Assembly: GCF_005484985.1 (NCBI RefSeq) | Contig: NZ_CP027942.1 | Coordinates: forward strand, 992,001-1,056,000 | Length of the DNA: 64,000 nucleotides | Direction: 5' to 3' | Source: Agrococcus sp. SGAir0287 | Lineage (GTDB): Bacteria; Actinomycetota; Actinomycetes; Actinomycetales; Microbacteriaceae | Shown: positions 46,501 to 56,743 of the stretch, in pieces | How positions within the stretch are numbered: position 1 is the first letter of the stretch | Layout: each line of letters starts with the position of its first letter | The notes under the pieces: generated by a model | Told to the model about the DNA's origin: nothing | Databases searched by the model: none | Seen by the model: the letters and a program-made list of their open reading frames with translations, nothing else | Translations under genes and position numbers: made by a program

Positions 46501-47307
46501 ATGGGCGGTCGACTGCGCGCGGGCAGACGCGCCTGGCGCGCCGAGAATCGCGGTCGGCTGGGTGCGACGCGGTCGGAGCATCGGCGCGGCGAGGACGTCG
46601 TCGTCGCCTGGCACTGGCGCGGCGGCCATGCGCGCACGCTCGTCCTCGTGCACGGCATCGGCATGGGCCAGCAGTACTTCGGGCTGCTGCGCGAGGAGCT
46701 CTGCCGCCCGTACGACGTCGTCGCGATCGACCTGCCCGGCTTCGGGGAGTCGCCGGAGCCGACGAGGCAGGCGTCGATGCCGGAGTGCGCCGACCACGTC
46801 GCGGCGGTGCTGCGCGACCTGGGCATCGCCCCGGTCGTCGCCATCGGCCACTCGATGGGCACGCAGGTCGTCGCCGAGCTCGCCGCACGGCACCCGGACC
46901 TCGTCGAGCGACTCGTGCTCATCGGCCCGACGGTCGACGCGAGGCATCGCTCGAAGCGGTCGCAGACGGCGCGGCTGCTGCTCGATCTCGTCAACGATCC
47001 GCCGATCGTCGCCGCCGTCGGCCTGCGGATGTACGCGCAGGCCGGTCCGCGCTGGTTCCTCACGCAGTTCGACGCGATGCTCGCCCACCGCATCGAGGAC
47101 GTCGCACCGCGCATCGACTGCCCGACGCTCGTCGTGCGCGGCTCGAGCGACGTCGTCTGCCCCCGGGGCTGGACGCGGCACGTGGCCTCCCTCATCCCCG
47201 ACGCCACGTTCCGCGAGGCGCGAGGCAAGGGGCACGAGGCGATGATCACGGGCGCCGAGCCCGTCGCCCGCATGGTGACGAGGTTCCTCGAGGACACGGG
47301 CGCATGA
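46501..47307 (+). CDS. Alpha/beta hydrolase
   Basis: 268 residues. Nucleophile Ser118 in the elbow GHSMG, oxyanion HGIGMG at about 51-56, acid in RGSSDVVCP and His in GKGHEAMI near the C-terminus. The first 30 residues are basic. The substrate is unknown; esterase or lactonase activity is likely. TACGAT (46489-46494) ends 6 bases before the ATG. It is first of three genes joined by 4-base overlaps. Confidence 0.85.
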   Translation: MGGRLRAGRRAWRAENRGRLGATRSEHRRGEDVVVAWHWRGGHARTLVLVHGIGMGQQYFGLLREELCRPYDVVAIDLPGFGESPEPTRQASMPECADHVAAVLRDLGIAPVVAIGHSMGTQVVAELAARHPDLVERLVLIGPTVDARHRSKRSQTARLLLDLVNDPPIVAAVGLRMYAQAGPRWFLTQFDAMLAHRIEDVAPRIDCPTLVVRGSSDVVCPRGWTRHVASLIPDATFREARGKGHEAMITGAEPVARMVTRFLEDTGA

Positions 47308-49084: not shown

Positions 49085-50752
49085 TCAGTCGGCGACGATC
49101 GCGCCCGGGTTGAGGATGCGCTGCGGGTCGGACGCGGCGAACAGTCCGCGCATGACCGTGACGCCCTCGGCCGAGATGTCCTGCTCGAGCCACGGCGCGT
49201 GCTCGAAGCCGACGCCGTGGTGGTGCGAGATCGAGCCGCCGTGGTCGACGAACGACTGCTGGATGGCCGACTTCACGGTCTCGTACTCGGCGATCTCGTC
49301 GCCGCCCGCGACCCACGCGAACGTGAAGTAGAGGCACGCGCCCGAGTGGTACGAGTGCGACAGATGGCACATGATCCAGCCGGGCTGCCCGATCCGCTCG
49401 TAGGCGGCGTTCGCCGAGGCGACGGTCGCGTCGTACAGCTCGAGCAGGCGCGACCACGGCGCGACGGTCTCGGACACGTCGGCGACGGCGCCGCGGTCGA
49501 GGAGGAAGTCGCGCAGGTAGGGGGTGTCGAACTTCTTCTGGTCGTACAGCACGCCGGGGCCGGTGCCCACGCCCATGCCGCCGTACGCCTTCACGATCCT
49601 CTCGACCGCTGCGCGCTGCCGGCGCACGTGCGCGGGCGAGCCCTCGTAGCCGATGAACGACATGCAGATCTCGTCGAGGTCCCAGCCCTTCGACCGCATG
49701 AGACGGGGGAGCACCTCCTCGGCGAGGATGCGCGACGTGCCCGTGCGCAGCTTGCTCGTCGACATCGAGAACGCCGTCTCGCGCGCATCCGACACGCGTG
49801 TGATCGACGGTGCGGCATCCGACGCCGCGATCGCCTGCATCGCGCCGAGCGCGACGTTCCAGCGCGGGAAGAAGTACGCGTGGATGACGCGCTCCTCGGG
49901 GACGCGGTGCACCTGCACCGAGACCTCGGTGATGATGCCGAGACGGCCCTCCGACCCGAGCACCATCTCGCGCACGCTCGGCCCGGTCGACGCGTTCGGC
50001 ATCGCGCGGATGACGAGCGTGCCGTCGGGGCGCACGACCCGCATGCCTCGGGTGATCTCGGCGATGTCGCCGTACTTGTCCGACTGCATGCCGCTCGAGC
50101 GCGTCGCGACCCAGCCGCCGAGCGTCGAGTGCGTGAACGAGTCGGGGAAGTGGCCGAGCGTCCAGCCCTTCGCGTTCAGCTGCGCCTCGAGGTCGGGCCC
50201 GAGCGCGCCCGCCTGGATGCGCGCGATCTGCGACGGCTCGTCGATGTCGACGAGCAGGCGCATGCGACCCATGTCGACCGACACGATCGGTCGCGTCTCG
50301 GTCGCGGTCGGCTCGAGGGAGCCTGCGATGTTCGAGCCGCCGCCGAAGGGGATGAGCACGGCGTTCGCGGCGACCGCGACCTGCACGATGCGGGCCACGT
50401 CGTCCTCGTCGCCGGGGTAGGCGACGACGTCGGGGATGCGCGGCAGGATGCCGGCGCGCACCCGGATGAGGTCGCGGATCGACTTGCCGTACGTGTGCAC
50501 GACGCGATCGAGGTCCTCGGTCACGACGTGCTCGGCCCCGATGGCGCCGCGCAGCTCGTCGAGGAGTGCGGACGGCGCCTGCGACGCGGGCACGTCGAGC
50601 GCGTCGAACGACGGCGTGTCGACGGCGGGGGCGGCGTGCAGGTCGAGCCCGACGGCCTGCTGCACGAAGGGCGCGAACGCGGGCTTGTCCTCGAAGTGGA
50701 ACCCGACGCCCTCGCGGCCCCAGCCCCACCACTTCATGTGCTCGACGGTCAT
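49085..50752 (-). CDS. Alkyl-dihydroxyacetonephosphate synthase-like FAD enzyme
   Basis: 555 residues. It starts with MKWWGWG like eukaryotic AGPS, has the VAO/PCMH FAD domain (IPFGGGSNIAGSLEP; FTHSTLGGWVATRSSGMQSDKYGDI), and ends with the AGPS hallmark GGSISHHHGVGFEHAPWL (triple-His loop) after SYHSGACLYFTFAW. AGPS swaps the acyl chain of acyl-DHAP for a fatty alcohol, making the ether bond of ether lipids. The gene overlaps plsC by 4 bases (ATGA) and lies back to back with a fatty acyl reductase gene. A lactate or glycolate oxidase-like role is the main alternative, less likely given the His loop. Confidence 0.88.
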   Translation of the reverse strand: MTVEHMKWWGWGREGVGFHFEDKPAFAPFVQQAVGLDLHAAPAVDTPSFDALDVPASQAPSALLDELRGAIGAEHVVTEDLDRVVHTYGKSIRDLIRVRAGILPRIPDVVAYPGDEDDVARIVQVAVAANAVLIPFGGGSNIAGSLEPTATETRPIVSVDMGRMRLLVDIDEPSQIARIQAGALGPDLEAQLNAKGWTLGHFPDSFTHSTLGGWVATRSSGMQSDKYGDIAEITRGMRVVRPDGTLVIRAMPNASTGPSVREMVLGSEGRLGIITEVSVQVHRVPEERVIHAYFFPRWNVALGAMQAIAASDAAPSITRVSDARETAFSMSTSKLRTGTSRILAEEVLPRLMRSKGWDLDEICMSFIGYEGSPAHVRRQRAAVERIVKAYGGMGVGTGPGVLYDQKKFDTPYLRDFLLDRGAVADVSETVAPWSRLLELYDATVASANAAYERIGQPGWIMCHLSHSYHSGACLYFTFAWVAGGDEIAEYETVKSAIQQSFVDHGGSISHHHGVGFEHAPWLEQDISAEGVTVMRGLFAASDPQRILNPGAIVAD

Positions 50753-51450
50753 GCCGGCAGCTCCTTCGCGTCAGGACCGCCGTGGACGGTCACGAGTCGG
50801 ACGACCTCCGCCTGCACGCGGGCGGTGAGGTCGCGGGCGGTCTCGCCCTCGATCGGTGCGATCGGGTCGCCGAAGACGACCGTCACGGGCAGTCGCCCAG
50901 GCTTCGGCCACGACGACCCTCGCGGATGGGCCTCGTGCGCGCCGATGAGCGCGACGGGCAGGATCGGCACGCCCAGGCTCGTGGCGAGCGCCGCCGATCC
51001 GGGGCGGAAGGGCCCCATCCTGCCGGTCTTCGAGCGCGTGCCCTCGGGGAACAGCAGCACGGGGATGCCGCGCTCGAGCAGGCTGCGCGCCGACACCACC
51101 TGCTTGCGCCGTCCGGAGCGCTGCACGGGGAAGGCGTTGAAGAACAGCGCGGTGAGTCCGCGGCGCCACCACACGTCGAAGAAGTAGTCGGCGGCGGCGC
51201 CGATCGCGAGGGTCTTCGCGATGCGCCACGGCAGGGCCGAGAGGATCGACGGCGCGTCGAGGTGGCTCGAGTGGTTCGCGACGAGGATGAACGGCTTCCC
51301 CTCGAGGGCTGCCGCCTTCTCGGCGTCGACGGCGTGCAGCGTGACGGTGGCGTGGACGGCCGACTTCAGCACGCCGCGTTGCGCGCCGAAGCGAGCGACC
51401 TCATGCGCCTTCGAGTCGAAGCGGTCGCGGGGATGCGAGGCGTCTGCCAC
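50749..51450 (-). CDS. 1-acyl-glycerol-3-phosphate acyltransferase (PlsC family)
   Basis: 233 residues. PlsC motifs: NHSSHLD (HX4D catalytic box) around residues 59-65, FPEGTRSKTGRMGPFRPG, and VPILPVALIG. It transfers an acyl chain to lysophosphatidate, alkyl-glycerophosphate or DHAP. The start is GTG 51450; TAGGTT (rc of 51457-51462) ends 6 bases upstream and overlaps the TAG stop of the SDR gene. Translationally coupled to the alkyl-DHAP synthase-like gene. Confidence 0.9.
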   Translation of the reverse strand: MADASHPRDRFDSKAHEVARFGAQRGVLKSAVHATVTLHAVDAEKAAALEGKPFILVANHSSHLDAPSILSALPWRIAKTLAIGAAADYFFDVWWRRGLTALFFNAFPVQRSGRRKQVVSARSLLERGIPVLLFPEGTRSKTGRMGPFRPGSAALATSLGVPILPVALIGAHEAHPRGSSWPKPGRLPVTVVFGDPIAPIEGETARDLTARVQAEVVRLVTVHGGPDAKELPA

Positions 51451-51459
51451 CAGGACAAC

Positions 51460-52215
51460 CTATCGATCGCGACGCGATCGCAGCGCACGCGAGAGCGCTC
51501 GCACGCCCGAGCGCGGCATGACGCGCAGCAATCCCGCGAACGCCTTGTACCGAACGCTCGGTATGGACAGGACCTTGCCGCGATCGACGTCGCGCAGGCA
51601 TGCCGCGACCACGGCGTCGGGCTCGAGCCACAGCACGTCGGGCAGCCCGGACGCTGCCATGCCCGCCCGCTCGTGGAACTCGGTGCGCACCCAGCCGGGC
51701 AGCAGCGCCGTGACGGTGACGCCCGAGCCGTGCAGCTCGTTCGCGAGCCCCTCGGTCAGCGTCGTCACCCACGCCTTGATCGCCGCGTACGCGCCCATGG
51801 CAGTGAGCCCGGCGGTGGAGGACACCGTGACGATCGCGCCCTCGCCGCGTGGGCGCATCGCACGCGCCGCCGCGGCGGCGAGGCGCTGCGTCGAGCGCCC
51901 CATGACCTCCCACGCACGGTCGTGCTCGGCGGGGTCCGCGCTCATGATGGGCGCGTGCATCCCGAACCCGGCGCACGTCACGAGCATGCCGATGGGGGAG
52001 TCCTCGGACTCGAGCCGCGCGGCGACGCGCTCCTGCTCGTCGCGGACCGCGAGGTCCGCGGGCAGCACCTCGACGTCGACCGGCAGCTCCGCCGCCATCG
52101 CCTCGAGCCGCGCGCGATCGCGGGCCACGAGGACCAGGTCGTGACCGCGGGCGGCGAGGGCGCGCGCGAAGGCCGCTCCGATGCCGGAGGACGCACCGGT
52201 GACGAGCGCACGCAT
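51460..52215 (-). CDS. SDR family oxidoreductase
   Basis: 251 residues. Classical SDR: TGASSGIG at 6-13, catalytic Ser132 or Ser133, Tyr143 and Lys147 (GAYAAIKAW), then LLPGWVRTEF. In the cluster context it could reduce the ketone of alkyl- or acyl-DHAP, the job done by the SDR PexRAP/DHRS7B in animals; this is inference. TAGGGT (rc of 52223-52228) ends 7 bases before ATG 52215. First gene of the leftward group. Confidence 0.85.
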   Translation of the reverse strand: MRALVTGASSGIGAAFARALAARGHDLVLVARDRARLEAMAAELPVDVEVLPADLAVRDEQERVAARLESEDSPIGMLVTCAGFGMHAPIMSADPAEHDRAWEVMGRSTQRLAAAAARAMRPRGEGAIVTVSSTAGLTAMGAYAAIKAWVTTLTEGLANELHGSGVTVTALLPGWVRTEFHERAGMAASGLPDVLWLEPDAVVAACLRDVDRGKVLSIPSVRYKAFAGLLRVMPRSGVRALSRALRSRRDR

Positions 52216-52305
52216 GCGCCCCACCCTAGCGAGCGCCCCGGTCGAGGGGCTCGACCGTCGATCGACCGATCGGCGAGCCATGCTCGGGCCGGTATCGTCG
52301 AGACG

Positions 52306-53109
52306 ATGACCAGCACCACCGCGCCCGAGCGCGGCTTCGACGTGCGCGCGTTCGCCCGCGACGCGCGCGGCAGCCACCGCGACGCGCTCGACCTCGATGC
52401 GTTCGTCGCGAGCCCGCTCGACGACGTCTCGCTGCGCCTCGTCGCCGTGCTGCACCACGTCGAGGCCGCCACGATGGGGCGTCTGCGCGACATGCTCGTG
52501 ACCGCGACGCACAAGGACGCGCGCATGACGGCGTTCCTCGTGACGTGGGCGTACGAGCGCTTCTGGATCGCCGACGCGCTGCGCGCGATCCTCGAGGCGC
52601 ACGGTCACCCCACCGAGCTGCACGGCCGGCCGCGGCTCCGCCCGCGCGAGCTCGCCGAGCGTCGAGGACCCGTGCGCCGTGCGATCCTCGCCAACGTGAC
52701 GGGAAACGACGTCGTCGCCATCCACGCCGCGACCGGGCTCGTCGACGAGTGGATCATCGGCGAGGCCTTCGGTGCCCTCGCGCGCCACGCGCGCCACACG
52801 ACGATCGACGTGCTCGCCCGCATCGTCGACGAGGTCCAGGCGCGCCACCTCGACTTCCTCGGCCAGGAGGCGCACGCGAGGCTCGCCCGCTCGACGCGCG
52901 CCCGCCGGCTCACGCGCCGAGCGCTGCTCGGCGCCGCATGGCCCATCGGCGCCATCCACGTGCCCGCGAGGGCGCGGCACCTGCTCGAGCGGCTCACGTT
53001 CGCAGGTGCGCAGGGCCGCGAGGCCATCGTGCGCGTGCGCGACCGCGTCGCGGCGCTGCCGGGCATGGATGCGACAGCGGACCGTCTGGCTGCCAGGCTG
53101 GTGGCATGA
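52306..53109 (+). CDS. Ferritin-like/acyl-ACP-desaturase-like protein with degenerate metal site
   Basis: 267 residues, clearly paralogous to 55446-56240. Aligned by eye, only half of the di-iron ligands remain: Glu53, Glu148 and His181 are kept, while the ExxH of helix 2 is replaced (Arg85, Ile88) and the last Glu is Gln178. It is therefore unlikely to bind two irons and may be a structural or regulatory partner of the intact paralogue. TATCGT (52293-52298) ends 7 bases before the ATG. The stop overlaps the next gene's ATG. Confidence 0.78.
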   Translation: MTSTTAPERGFDVRAFARDARGSHRDALDLDAFVASPLDDVSLRLVAVLHHVEAATMGRLRDMLVTATHKDARMTAFLVTWAYERFWIADALRAILEAHGHPTELHGRPRLRPRELAERRGPVRRAILANVTGNDVVAIHAATGLVDEWIIGEAFGALARHARHTTIDVLARIVDEVQARHLDFLGQEAHARLARSTRARRLTRRALLGAAWPIGAIHVPARARHLLERLTFAGAQGREAIVRVRDRVAALPGMDATADRLAARLVA

Positions 53110-55397
53110 GTCCCACGACGCCGCACGACCTCGGGTCCGCTCACGTCCTCCTCACCGGAGCGACCGGATTCGTCGGTCAGGCCATCCTCGAGCGCCTGCT
53201 CGCGACGTTCCCCGACACGACGATCTCGATCCTCGTGCGCGGCAAGGGCGACGAGAGCGCCGAGCAGCGCGCGGCGGCGCTGCTGCGCAAGCCGGTCTTC
53301 GACGCCTGGCGCGCCGCGGTCGGCGACGAGGTCGCCGATGCCGCGATCGGCACGCGCATCACGGTCATCGACTCCGGGCTCGACGAGGTCGCGCCGCTGC
53401 CTGCCGGCATCGACGTCGTCTTCCACTCCGCGGCGAGCGTGTCGTTCGACCCGCCCATCGACGAGTCGTTCGACACGAACCTCGGGGGTGCGGTCGGCCT
53501 GTACGAGGCGGTGCGCGCCACGGGCGCCGACCCGCACGTCGTGCACATCTCCACCTGCTACGTCGGCGGCCTGCGCAAGGGCGTCGCGCTCGAGCAGAGC
53601 CTCGAGCACTCGGTCGACTGGCGCCTCGAGCACCGTGCCGCCCGGCAGGCGCGCGAGCGCGTCGAGATGCAGTCGCGCATGCCAGAGCTGCTCACGGGAT
53701 TCCTCGACGCAGCGCGCGCCGAGCACGGCAAGGCCGGACCGCTCGCGGTCGCGTCCGCGAGCGAGGAGGCACGCCGCGCCTGGGTGACCGAGCAGCTCGT
53801 CGAGGCCGGCCGCACGCGGGCGCAGAGCCTCGGCTGGACCGACGTCTACACGCTCACGAAGGCGTTCGCCGAGCGCGCCGCCGAGGAGCTGTGGGGCGCC
53901 GAGCGACGCCTGTCGATCGTGCGCCCGTCGATCATCGAGTCGGCCGCGCAGCACCCGTACCCGGGCTGGATCGACGGCTTCAAGGTCGCAGACCCCCTCA
54001 TCGTCGCCTACGGCAAGGGCCAGCTGCCCGAGTTCCCCGGCTCGCCGGATTCCGTGCTCGACGTCATCCCCGTCGACCACGTCGTGAACGCGGCGATCGC
54101 GGCCGCGACGCAGCCGCCGCCCGCCGGCAGCCCCGCGTACTACCAGGTGGCGTCGGGGCGCTCGAACCCGCTGCCGTACCACGAGATCTTCGAGGCGGTG
54201 CGGACGTACTTCACGAAGCACCCCATGCAGCAGGGCGACGCGCCCGTCATCGTGCCCGAGTGGACCTTCCCCGGCGGCATGCGCGTCGACCGGCGCCTCG
54301 CGCAGCAGCAGCGCGCCGTGACGCTCGCGCAGAAGGCGCTCGGCGTCATGCCGACGACGTCGCGCACGCGCCGCTGGCGCACGTCGACGGACAAGGCCGT
54401 GCGCGACATCGGCCGCCTGCGCCAGTTCATCGCGCTCTACAAGGTGTACGTGCAGTCGGAGATCATCTTCGACGACGCGAACACGAAGGCGCTGCACGCG
54501 TCGCTGCCGCCCGAGATCGCCGCCGACCGCGGCTTCGACATCACGGCCATCGACTGGGAGCACTACCTGCAGGACGTGCACCTGCCCGCTGTGACCGAGC
54601 TCGCCACGTCGTTCTCCGCGCGGCGTCGCGCGAAGGCGAAGGCGGCGATCGCCGAGTCCGCCGCGGGCCTGCCGCAGCGCTCCGACGTGCTCGCGGTCTT
54701 CGACCTCGAGGGCACGCTCGTGGACTCGAACATCGTCGAGCAGTACCTGTGGGTGCGCACGAACGGCGTGCGCCGCACGGCGTATCCCGCCGAGGTCGTG
54801 CGGATGCTCGCCGACGTGCCGCGCTACCTCGCCGCCGAGCGTCGCGACCGCGGCGAGTTCATCCGCGAGTTCATGCGCCGCTACGAGGGCATGGCCGTCG
54901 ACCGGCTCGAGCGCATCGTCCAGGGCAGCGGCTACCGCGAGCGGATGCTGTCCCACGCGAGCGCCGACGCGATCGAGCGCGTCCTGCAGCACCGCGCCGC
55001 CGGGCATCGCACCGTGCTCGTCACCGGATCCTTCGACCGCCTCGCCGCTCCGGTCGCCGCGCTCTTCGACGAGGTCGTCGCCGGCAGCATGCACGAGCGC
55101 GACGGTCGTCTCACGGGCTATCTCGCGACCCCGCCGCTCGTCGACGAGGCGCGCGCGTCGTGGCTCGCGCAGTACGCCGACGAGCACGGCGCCGACCTGT
55201 CGGCGTCGTACGGCTACGGCGACAGCCACGCCGACCTCGGCTGGCTGCGACTCGTCGGCACGCCGACGGCCGTGAACGCCGACTCGCGGCTCGCGGCCGA
55301 GGCGGACCGGCGCGGATGGACGTCGGTACGCTGGCGACGTGGTCCGGCAGTCCGATCCCGGGCGCTGCTCCGAACCATCCCGGAGACCGCCGCATGA
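53106..55397 (+). CDS. Fatty acyl-CoA/ACP reductase fused to HAD-IB phosphatase-like domain
   Basis: 763 residues. N-terminal part (about 10-380): FAR/NAD_binding_4 domain with LLTGATGFVGQAILERLL (TGATGFVG at 17-24), HISTCYVGG, and Tyr248/Lys252 in VYTLTKAFAERA. It should reduce activated fatty acids to aldehyde or alcohol. C-terminal part (about 528-740): HAD-IB domain with FDLEGTLVDSN (nucleophile Asp533, but Glu535 where a second Asp is usual), VLVTGSFDRLAAP and YGYGDSHADLGWL. The fusion resembles acyltransferase/HAD/FAR proteins of ether- or wax-lipid pathways. Coupled by ATGA to the upstream gene. Confidence 0.87.
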   Translation: MSPTTPHDLGSAHVLLTGATGFVGQAILERLLATFPDTTISILVRGKGDESAEQRAAALLRKPVFDAWRAAVGDEVADAAIGTRITVIDSGLDEVAPLPAGIDVVFHSAASVSFDPPIDESFDTNLGGAVGLYEAVRATGADPHVVHISTCYVGGLRKGVALEQSLEHSVDWRLEHRAARQARERVEMQSRMPELLTGFLDAARAEHGKAGPLAVASASEEARRAWVTEQLVEAGRTRAQSLGWTDVYTLTKAFAERAAEELWGAERRLSIVRPSIIESAAQHPYPGWIDGFKVADPLIVAYGKGQLPEFPGSPDSVLDVIPVDHVVNAAIAAATQPPPAGSPAYYQVASGRSNPLPYHEIFEAVRTYFTKHPMQQGDAPVIVPEWTFPGGMRVDRRLAQQQRAVTLAQKALGVMPTTSRTRRWRTSTDKAVRDIGRLRQFIALYKVYVQSEIIFDDANTKALHASLPPEIAADRGFDITAIDWEHYLQDVHLPAVTELATSFSARRRAKAKAAIAESAAGLPQRSDVLAVFDLEGTLVDSNIVEQYLWVRTNGVRRTAYPAEVVRMLADVPRYLAAERRDRGEFIREFMRRYEGMAVDRLERIVQGSGYRERMLSHASADAIERVLQHRAAGHRTVLVTGSFDRLAAPVAALFDEVVAGSMHERDGRLTGYLATPPLVDEARASWLAQYADEHGADLSASYGYGDSHADLGWLRLVGTPTAVNADSRLAAEADRRGWTSVRWRRGPAVRSRALLRTIPETAA

Positions 55398-55445
55398 GCG
55401 CGGTCCGGAGCATCACGGCGTAGAGCAGGACGGGCGAGCGGGCAC

Positions 55446-56240
55446 ATGGCCTTCGACATCGACAAGTACACGAAGCAGTCCGAGGGCGTCGAGTGGGGCG
55501 ACCTCGACCTCGACGCCTTCGACGAGCAGCCGCTCGACGAGCCGACGCTGCGCACGCTGCGCTACATGTGCGACGTCGAGTACCACACGGTCTGCTACCT
55601 GCGGGACCTGCTGACGACGCCGTCGCACAAGGAGCCCGAGGTCGGCGCCTTCATGACCATGTGGAACCGCGAGGAGTTCTGGCACGGAGAGGCGCTCGCC
55701 GCGGTCCTCGCGAAGCACGACATCACCGTCGACTACGACGTGCTGAAGGCGCGCCGCATCAAGCTCGGCTGGAAGGATCGGCTCGATCCGATCAAGCAGT
55801 CGCTGCTCGGCAACGTCGTCGGCCACGACTTCGTCGCCGTGCACATGACGTACGGCGCCGCGAACGAGTACTCGGCGAACGCCGCCTACCACCGCCTCGC
55901 GAAGATGGTCACGCATCCCGTGCTCACGCCGCTGCTGAAGCGCATCGCCATCCAGGAGTCGAAGCACATCGCCTTCTACGCGACGCAGGCGCGCAAGCGA
56001 CTCGAGGCGTCGAAGAAGGCTCGCGTCATCACCCGCTTCGTCATGTCGAAGGTGTGGCAGCCCGTCGGCTCCGGCATCAACACCGACGAGGAGGTCACCC
56101 ACGTGATGACCCACCTCTTCCAGGGCCCCGACGGCCGCAAGCTCATCCGCGACCTCGACACGAAGATCTCCGCACTGCCCGGGCTCGAGGGGCTGCGGAT
56201 CGTGGAGAAGGCCATGGACAACCGGGGCGTGCCGGCCTGA
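55446..56240 (+). CDS. Di-iron ferritin-like protein, acyl-ACP desaturase-like
   Basis: 264 residues. The ligand pattern is complete: Glu45; Glu77 and His80 (EFWH); Glu141; Glu171 and His174 (ESKH). This Glu-ExxH-Glu-ExxH order is that of soluble stearoyl-ACP desaturases; aldehyde deformylating oxygenase uses the same order. In this cluster it may desaturate a lipid chain, possibly forming the vinyl ether of a plasmalogen, or act on a fatty aldehyde; undecided. The start ATG 55446 follows GGGCGAGCGGG. The stop is inside a strong terminator hairpin. Confidence 0.8.
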   Translation: MAFDIDKYTKQSEGVEWGDLDLDAFDEQPLDEPTLRTLRYMCDVEYHTVCYLRDLLTTPSHKEPEVGAFMTMWNREEFWHGEALAAVLAKHDITVDYDVLKARRIKLGWKDRLDPIKQSLLGNVVGHDFVAVHMTYGAANEYSANAAYHRLAKMVTHPVLTPLLKRIAIQESKHIAFYATQARKRLEASKKARVITRFVMSKVWQPVGSGINTDEEVTHVMTHLFQGPDGRKLIRDLDTKISALPGLEGLRIVEKAMDNRGVPA

Positions 56241-56265: not shown

Positions 56266-56743
56266 GCGCGCCGGTTGGCGACGCGGAACGCAGAGAGGTG
56301 TCGTCGGTCGCACCACCCGGCCTTCCTTCGTGCTGCCGGATGCTCGTCGTGTGCTGCGTGCGCGTCTCTCCATGACCGCCCCTTGAGGTGCGAGCGCAGC
56401 GAGCCTCGAAAGGGGCTCCCGGGCTCGTTCGCCGATCAGCGGAGCGGGGTCGTCGGGCACCCTTCGAGGCTCGCTGCGCTCGCACCTCAGGGAGCGGGGA
56501 GGCTCGCTGCGCTCGCACCTCAGGGAGCGGGGAGGCTCGCTGCGCTCGCACCTCAGGGAGCGGCGGGGAGGATGCTGCTTGCACGCGGGTCTCCACGACC
56601 GCACCTCGGAGCTCTCCATGACCGCCCTCAGGGAGCGGGAACAGGTGCTGCGCTCGCGCCACAGAAGCGAGGACGTCTGCTGCGCTCGCACCTCGGGCGA
56701 ACGGGGGAGCGAGCGTTCACCGAAGCGCCCGCGGGACTGCCCG
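56266..56743. other. Gene-free repeat region
   Basis: 478 bases without a credible gene. It holds tandem and inverted copies of a 33-bp unit (56384-56564), plus partial copies: CTCTCCATGACCGCCC at about 56366 and 56612, CTCAGGGAGCGGG at 56627, and GCTGCGCTCGC pieces near 56648 and 56679. Open frames across it are only repeats of Arg/Glu/Ser/Pro-rich words and have no start signal. Confidence 0.8.
56384..56564. repeat. 33-bp tandem repeats with an inverted copy
   Basis: Three head-to-tail copies of a 33-bp unit lie at 56466-56498, 56499-56531 and 56532-56564 (last copy one mismatch). An inverted 27-base copy at 56384-56410 is the exact reverse complement of 56463-56489, so the RNA or single strand could form a 27-bp stem with a 52-base loop. 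The unit begins GAGGCTCGCTGCGCTCGCAC. Confidence 0.92.

Follow-up and report, generated by a model that had tools for sequence, protein, structure and literature searches.

An actinobacterial gene cluster predicted to make ether lipids, with a soluble-type di-iron protein as candidate for vinyl-ether formation

What is made by six adjacent genes that pair an AGPS-like alkyl-dihydroxyacetone phosphate (DHAP) synthase with two ferritin-like proteins? The genes lie in a 64,000-nucleotide stretch of Agrococcus sp. SGAir0287 (NZ_CP027942.1, positions 992,001 to 1,056,000; a genome of one 3.08-Mb contig), and "the window" means that whole stretch. Besides AGPS they encode a PlsC-family acyltransferase, a short-chain dehydrogenase/reductase (SDR), a fatty acyl-CoA reductase (FAR) fused to a HAD hydrolase, and two proteins that we named FerA and FerB in this analysis. 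A sequence-only reading had proposed an ether-lipid, possibly plasmalogen, cluster in two divergent groups, and the layout is as it described: all six open reading frames are open and intact, and order and overlaps agree, with ATGA overlaps at the AGPS/PlsC and FerA/FAR-HAD junctions (Table 1). Our analysis indicates that the locus very probably serves alkyl-ether lipid synthesis. The complete statement, an aerobic DHAP-dependent ether-lipid locus with a plasmalogen end product in which FerB with FerA makes the vinyl ether, we consider evenly poised. What is new here is best called an aerobic DHAP-dependent ether-lipid pathway variant with an undescribed di-iron family.

The AGPS-like protein carries the domains PF01565 (E = 7.4e-34) and PF02913 (E = 7.5e-41). 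In a PDB search it matched 2uuu with 397.6 bits (E = 7.9e-118, residues 55-552) and 4bby with 283.6 bits (E = 2.9e-83, residues 24-547), which we take to be the Dictyostelium and guinea pig AGPS, whereas the best glycolate oxidase reached 81.1 bits (E = 6.3e-22). Motifs of the SHHH, CLYF, and PYLRD type, aligned with 2uuu, are conserved in all cluster AGPS rows except a gapped one (74 of 75); the HHH loop, Tyr, and Arg of these motifs are presumably the catalytic residues of the AGPS structures. The SHHHGVG loop singled out by the sequence-only reading is thus present, with HHH retained in every ungapped row. The MKWWGWG motif is present as well but does not form the start of the protein, which begins MTVEHMKWWGWG and has the motif from residue 6. 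Two controls also ranked AGPS first, namely a Streptomyces FAD protein (163.6 bits, residues 2-231 of 428) and a Microbacteriaceae relative with 34-37% identity (268.1 bits), so the PDB ranking alone is not specific and does not prove an AGPS. The score comparisons uphold the assignment, since solved AGPS chains far outscore glycolate oxidase over nearly the full length.

Pfam placed the other three enzymes as they had been read, in Acyltransferase, adh_short, and NAD_binding_4 plus HAD. PlsC (PF01553, E = 2.5e-22; PDB 5kym, a PlsC, E = 1.3e-14) has conserved motifs and is, from its sequence, a candidate DHAP or sn-2 acyltransferase. Y143 and K147 of the SDR are kept in 80 of 80 rows. A mycolate reductase is its top NCBIfam model, with a score under the model cut-off, and the protein is a candidate acyl/alkyl-DHAP reductase that would take the role of PexRAP. 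Both belong to an ether-lipid gene set at the level of family, with putative substrates. The FAR-HAD protein matched PF07993 (E = 3e-45), PF12710 (E = 1.9e-32), and the fatty acyl-CoA reductase 7eoz (E = 3.4e-47). In the first HAD motif, 79 of the 80 rows with a residue there (81 aligned) have DxE where DxD is usual, which leaves phosphatase activity of this domain uncertain. The FAR, AGPS, reductase, and acyltransferase genes of an ether-lipid set are all present, the last two at the level of family.

These genes travel together. Among the best 80 of 168 FerB relatives from titled records, 64 loci hold all six genes and 61 hold them in the same order; 13 have FerA and FerB only, and 3 are partial (L004 and L031 at contig ends, L073 inside a contig). 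This six-gene co-occurrence is far above chance. Among the carriers of the set are many Microbacteriaceae together with Ruaniaceae and Jiangellaceae (Phytoactinopolyspora); four Streptomyces records (L010, L011, L013, and L016) have the whole cluster. Three of the four were placed in the AGPS and FerB trees and in both fall within the Microbacteriaceae, which suggests transfer. In 199 Microbacteriaceae genomes we found FerB in 60, an AGPS orthologue (at least 62% identity) in 55, FAR-HAD in 56, and all three in 54, so FerB accompanies 54 of the 55 AGPS-bearing genomes (Fisher p = 1.2e-40 for AGPS and FerB, a value that ignores the relatedness of genomes). The row counts for FerB ligands and motif conservation include a few genomes twice, as one assembly under two handles. 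A distant AGPS lineage (35-37% identity) is found in 4 of the 199 genomes (including L094, L095, L096, and G064:C62:129680-131296); the three copies read have the SHHH loop, and none of the four genomes gave a FAR-HAD match. A close relative, Agrococcus jejuensis, has a FerB that is 97% identical, and the six genes are 88-96% identical in its locus (L003). Three other Agrococcus genomes gave no match to FerB, AGPS, or FAR-HAD, and the distribution is therefore patchy.

Neither FerA nor FerB matches a Pfam family over any gathering cut-off. The two are paralogues (31% identity; profile-profile E = 3.8e-54). The di-iron ligands of FerB, E45, E77xxH80, E141, and E171xxH174, are complete in 98 of 98 rows and invariant across 110 rows, in line with the full site that had been read in one of the two ferritin-like proteins. 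In class-wide stretches the six ligands are kept in 16 of 17 FerB-type matches, the exception being L145 (37% identity), and the eighteenth stretch (L149) holds FerA only. FerA, which has lost the site, probably serves FerB as a non-catalytic partner. Of the Pfam families, FA_desaturase_2 (PF03405) is matched most often, though weakly: 107 of 110 members reach E <= 0.01, the best at 1.7e-5, and FerB itself scores 15.9 bits, under the gathering cut-off of 22.7. A FerB sequence search of the PDB found nothing firm (best E = 0.027); a further search gave DesA2 at E = 0.0032 and, over 23 residues only, a designed helix bundle at 6.8e-7, and NCBIfam returned weak AcsF and encapsulin-cargo matches. 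Comparison of the FerB fold with desaturases supported an acyl carrier protein (ACP)-desaturase-type fold, with 14-17% identity in structure alignments.

Could a known enzyme form the vinyl ether instead? The domain PF09989, which we take to be a marker of PlsA-type reductases, was not found in the window's genome and 12 Subtercola-like genomes and matched in 4 control genomes. PF10520, the CarF/PEDS1 membrane desaturase domain, likewise went undetected there, in the window's genome as in all 12 Subtercola-like genomes. It matched none of 14 control genomes but 18 of 396 actinobacterial genomes, 17 of them over the cut-off, so the search is able to find actinobacterial members. FerB, in turn, is the sole enzyme of the cluster with an oxygen-type di-iron site and no other assigned step. 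We favor it, at about even odds, as the vinyl-ether desaturase on the strength of this elimination, the desaturase fold, and its presence in 54 of 55 AGPS genomes. As a separate observation, the PF10520 genomes over the cut-off belong mostly to one family (G246, G296, G350, and others in f18; one in f47). PF10520 is a family of CarF/FAD4 type, and its actinobacterial matches contrast with a 2022 review in which myxobacteria are the exception among aerobic bacteria and true CarF beyond them is reported only in Leptospira (PMC9131029; this and the other papers cited below are drawn on in part).

In the pathway that we propose, the FAR domain would reduce fatty acyl-CoA to fatty alcohol, and PlsC or another acyltransferase would supply acyl-DHAP. 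AGPS would then swap the acyl group for the fatty alcohol to give alkyl-DHAP, which the SDR would reduce to alkyl-glycerol-3-phosphate. Acylation and head-group attachment would follow, with the HAD domain possibly removing phosphate toward a glycolipid or neutral lipid. Finally, FerB, as a soluble protein of acyl-ACP-desaturase fold with FerA as its non-catalytic partner, would carry out an O2-dependent C1'-C2' desaturation of the alkyl chain to the vinyl ether, taking the place of CarF/TMEM189 while being unrelated to it. We infer every one of these reactions, and the substrate of FerB above all; the basis is gene content, conservation, co-occurrence, intact motifs, fold, and the finding that neither CarF nor PlsA was detected in a genus with reported dimethylacetals.

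Dimethylacetals (DMAs) are a mark of plasmalogens. Four Subtercola species have iso-C16:0, anteiso-C15:0, and anteiso-C17:0 DMAs, and for Agreia the same paper gives a low iso-C15:0 DMA in its text and ND for the major DMAs in its table (PMC5945732). A peak named anteiso-C15:0 aldehyde/DMA is given for Frigoribacterium faeni and F. adelgis (PMC12823222). We labeled genera by FerB identity to named proteins: g8 is Subtercola (95.8-99.6%, the name coming from one metagenome-assembled genome), g77 Agreia (98%), and g34 Labedella (98%), while g36 is putatively Frigoribacterium (91%) and g5 putatively Frondihabitans (90%). The whole cluster is present in all four loci read from g8, g77, and g36, and AGPS is present in 12 of 12 Subtercola-like and 16 of 16 Frigoribacterium-like genomes. 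DMAs are thus published for genera that carry the cluster, in line with what the sequence-only reading says of some Microbacteriaceae. Our comparison, which covered DMA statements for cluster-positive genera, fits for Subtercola, Agreia, and Frigoribacterium and fails for Frondihabitans and two Frigoribacterium species. Were genera independent, all three DMA genera would carry AGPS with a chance of 0.037, which is weak evidence (29 of 85 genera carry AGPS, a count that drops g18, g63, and g64, which have distant AGPS only). A paper on four other Agrococcus strains makes no mention of DMAs (PMC12089952). In the open-licence PMC literature we found no enzyme named for Microbacteriaceae DMAs, no paper on this cluster, and none linking plasmalogens with a ferritin-like or desaturase protein.

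The fatty-acid reports also differ among themselves. The same Subtercola species are given DMAs in PMC5945732 but 2-OH C14:0 and no DMA in PMC9287328. Our guess is that the 2-OH C14:0 and DMA labels are one peak, against which stands the S. lobariae column that lists both (PMC5945732). MIDI or other automated fatty-acid naming may hide plasmalogens in Microbacteriaceae.

Several observations weigh against the link between the cluster and DMAs or against a dedicated vinyl-ether role for FerB. Frondihabitans is reported to lack DMAs (PMC5945732), yet the matched genus g5 has the cluster; AGPS occurs throughout g36, yet two Frigoribacterium species are reported without the DMA (PMC12823222). FerA and FerB occur without a close AGPS in five genomes (G025, G057, G079, G102, and G142; in a sixth, G107, the contig is cut inside PlsC), and some Microbacteriaceae genomes hold the pair without a close FAR-HAD. 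In a class-wide draw, which included the window's family, FerB was found in 40 of 394 genomes. Of 18 stretches taken from around such matches, 14 have FerB but none of its five cluster companions, and in 13 of the 14 all six ligands are kept. FerB chemistry therefore need not depend on an alkyl ether, and it is this separability of FerA/FerB that most weakens the vinyl-ether proposal. Neighbors of the 13 FerA/FerB-only loci, when clustered, recurred in ways that looked by eye like local synteny of unrelated genes (domains partly scanned), and the recurring neighbors of stand-alone FerB looked likewise. Four stand-alone FerB genes with all ligands (among L132-L134, L148, and others) belong to the same family as Phytoactinopolyspora contigs. 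The FerA/FerB pair and the ether module lie about 7 kb apart in G097 and G159, and G101, a genome 85% complete, has the module without the pair.

A real possibility, though one we lean against, is that the locus does make ether lipids while FerA and FerB desaturate or hydroxylate an acyl chain (as acyl-ACP or acyl-CoA) or another position of the alkyl chain, the DMAs coming from an unlinked enzyme or from fatty aldehyde left by FAR. The separability just described fits such a substrate, as do the acyl-ACP-desaturase fold and the FA_desaturase_2 matches, and some reports from cluster-bearing genera give a prominent share of unsaturated acids: C18:1 for Subtercola (PMC9287328) and C17:1 at 25% for Herbiconiux daphne CPCC 203386, a strain with the cluster in its genome (L037). 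Against this, FerB is as constant beside AGPS as expected for a pathway step and directly follows FAR-HAD in the common gene order, and the other fatty-acid accounts consulted give mainly saturated branched chains. Action on fatty aldehyde or alcohol in the manner of aldehyde deformylating oxygenase, leading to hydrocarbons, waxes, or a tuned alcohol pool, is improbable: AGPS, PlsC, and the SDR have no evident use there, yet they are co-clustered in 64 of 80 loci, and Pfam found no wax synthase among the genes flanking the cluster (the whole genome was not searched). Least probable of all is that the AGPS-like protein works as an ordinary FAD-linked hydroxy-acid dehydrogenase, in a cluster unrelated to ether lipids. 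AGPS, GlcD, and D-lactate dehydrogenase do share one superfamily, and the two distant relatives used as controls rank AGPS first as well; the cluster protein nevertheless scores 284-398 bits to AGPS near full length against 81 bits, conserves the HHH, Tyr, and Arg motifs, and is adjoined by FAR, SDR, and PlsC.

Table 1. Features of the predicted ether-lipid locus, in window coordinates
Feature	Coordinates	Strand	Size	Marks
AGPS-type alkyl-DHAP synthase (predicted)	49085..50752	-	555 aa	FAD_binding_4 + FAD-oxidase_C
PlsC-family acyltransferase	50749..51450	-	233 aa	NHSSHLD and FPEGTRS motifs; GTG start as called
SDR	51460..52215	-	251 aa	GASSGIG and YxxxK
Divergent intergenic region between arms	52216..52305		90 bp	Presumed promoter region
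FerA, ferritin-like paralogue	52306..53109	+	267 aa	Without intact di-iron site
Fatty acyl-CoA reductase fused to HAD-IB hydrolase	53106..55397	+	763 aa	Reductase N-terminal, hydrolase C-terminal
FerB, ferritin-like protein	55446..56240	+	264 aa	Complete di-iron site

Beyond AGPS lie two genes without a Pfam match and then an alpha/beta hydrolase (46501-47307; Abhydrolase_1, E = 2e-25), for which no link to the cluster is shown. Downstream of FerB, at about 56300-56700, repeated CERSEP-like units in open reading frames on both strands mark a short intergenic DNA repeat, and the two genes beyond FerB encode an endonuclease/phosphatase-family and a PHP-domain protein. In one Subtercola-like locus (L085:11120-12664, g8) a LarA-like protein (PF09861, lactate racemase N-terminal, E = 2e-28) is encoded between FAR-HAD and FerB, and another g8 locus (L084:10328-12055) has a look-alike at the same position.

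The cluster offers a concrete pathway open to genetic tests and, for the missing step behind Microbacteriaceae DMAs, an accessible soluble protein as candidate. The animal vinyl-ether enzyme was sought for five decades; a FerB that makes the vinyl ether would solve the same reaction with an unrelated protein and would explain plasmalogen-like lipid signals in some aerobic actinobacteria. That FerB, with the site-less FerA, provides a third route to the plasmalogen bond in many aerobic actinobacteria, independent of both CarF/TMEM189 and PlsA, is a tentative proposal to which we give slightly under an even chance. If FerB is not this enzyme, an animal-type AGPS set is still common in Microbacteriaceae and an unnamed di-iron family has been defined.

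The aerobic plasmalogen pathway of animals consists of FAR1, GNPAT, AGPS, PexRAP, and PEDS1/TMEM189 (PMC9131029). The actinobacterial cluster has the same predicted activities, a FAR, an acyltransferase, AGPS, an SDR reductase, and an O2-type di-iron enzyme, but its genes lie in one cluster, its FAR is fused to HAD, and its di-iron protein is of soluble type and not of the membrane PF10520 family. In Myxococcus xanthus, an aerobe with plasmalogens, the AGPS homologue MXAN_1676 (of MXAN_1676-1674), FAR and acyltransferase domains, and the separate HAD protein ElbB (PMC9131029) resemble the set described here. ElbD there joins FAR, acyl-CoA synthetase (ACS), ACP, and acyltransferase in one protein, whereas the actinobacterial FAR carries HAD only; Pfam found no ACS or ACP domain in any of the six proteins, and no CarF was found. 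PlsA/PlsR starts from a finished diacyl lipid, whose acyl ester it converts (PMC9702350), and, with its relative Ger, makes 1-alkenyl or alkyl ethers anaerobically; its marker was not found in the 13 genomes searched here. With the soluble acyl-ACP desaturases FerB shares the six-ligand di-iron site and the fold, at the low identity noted above to castor stearoyl-ACP desaturase and DesA2 and with its score under the PF03405 cut-off; unlike them, it is paired with a site-less paralogue and encoded together with AGPS and FAR.

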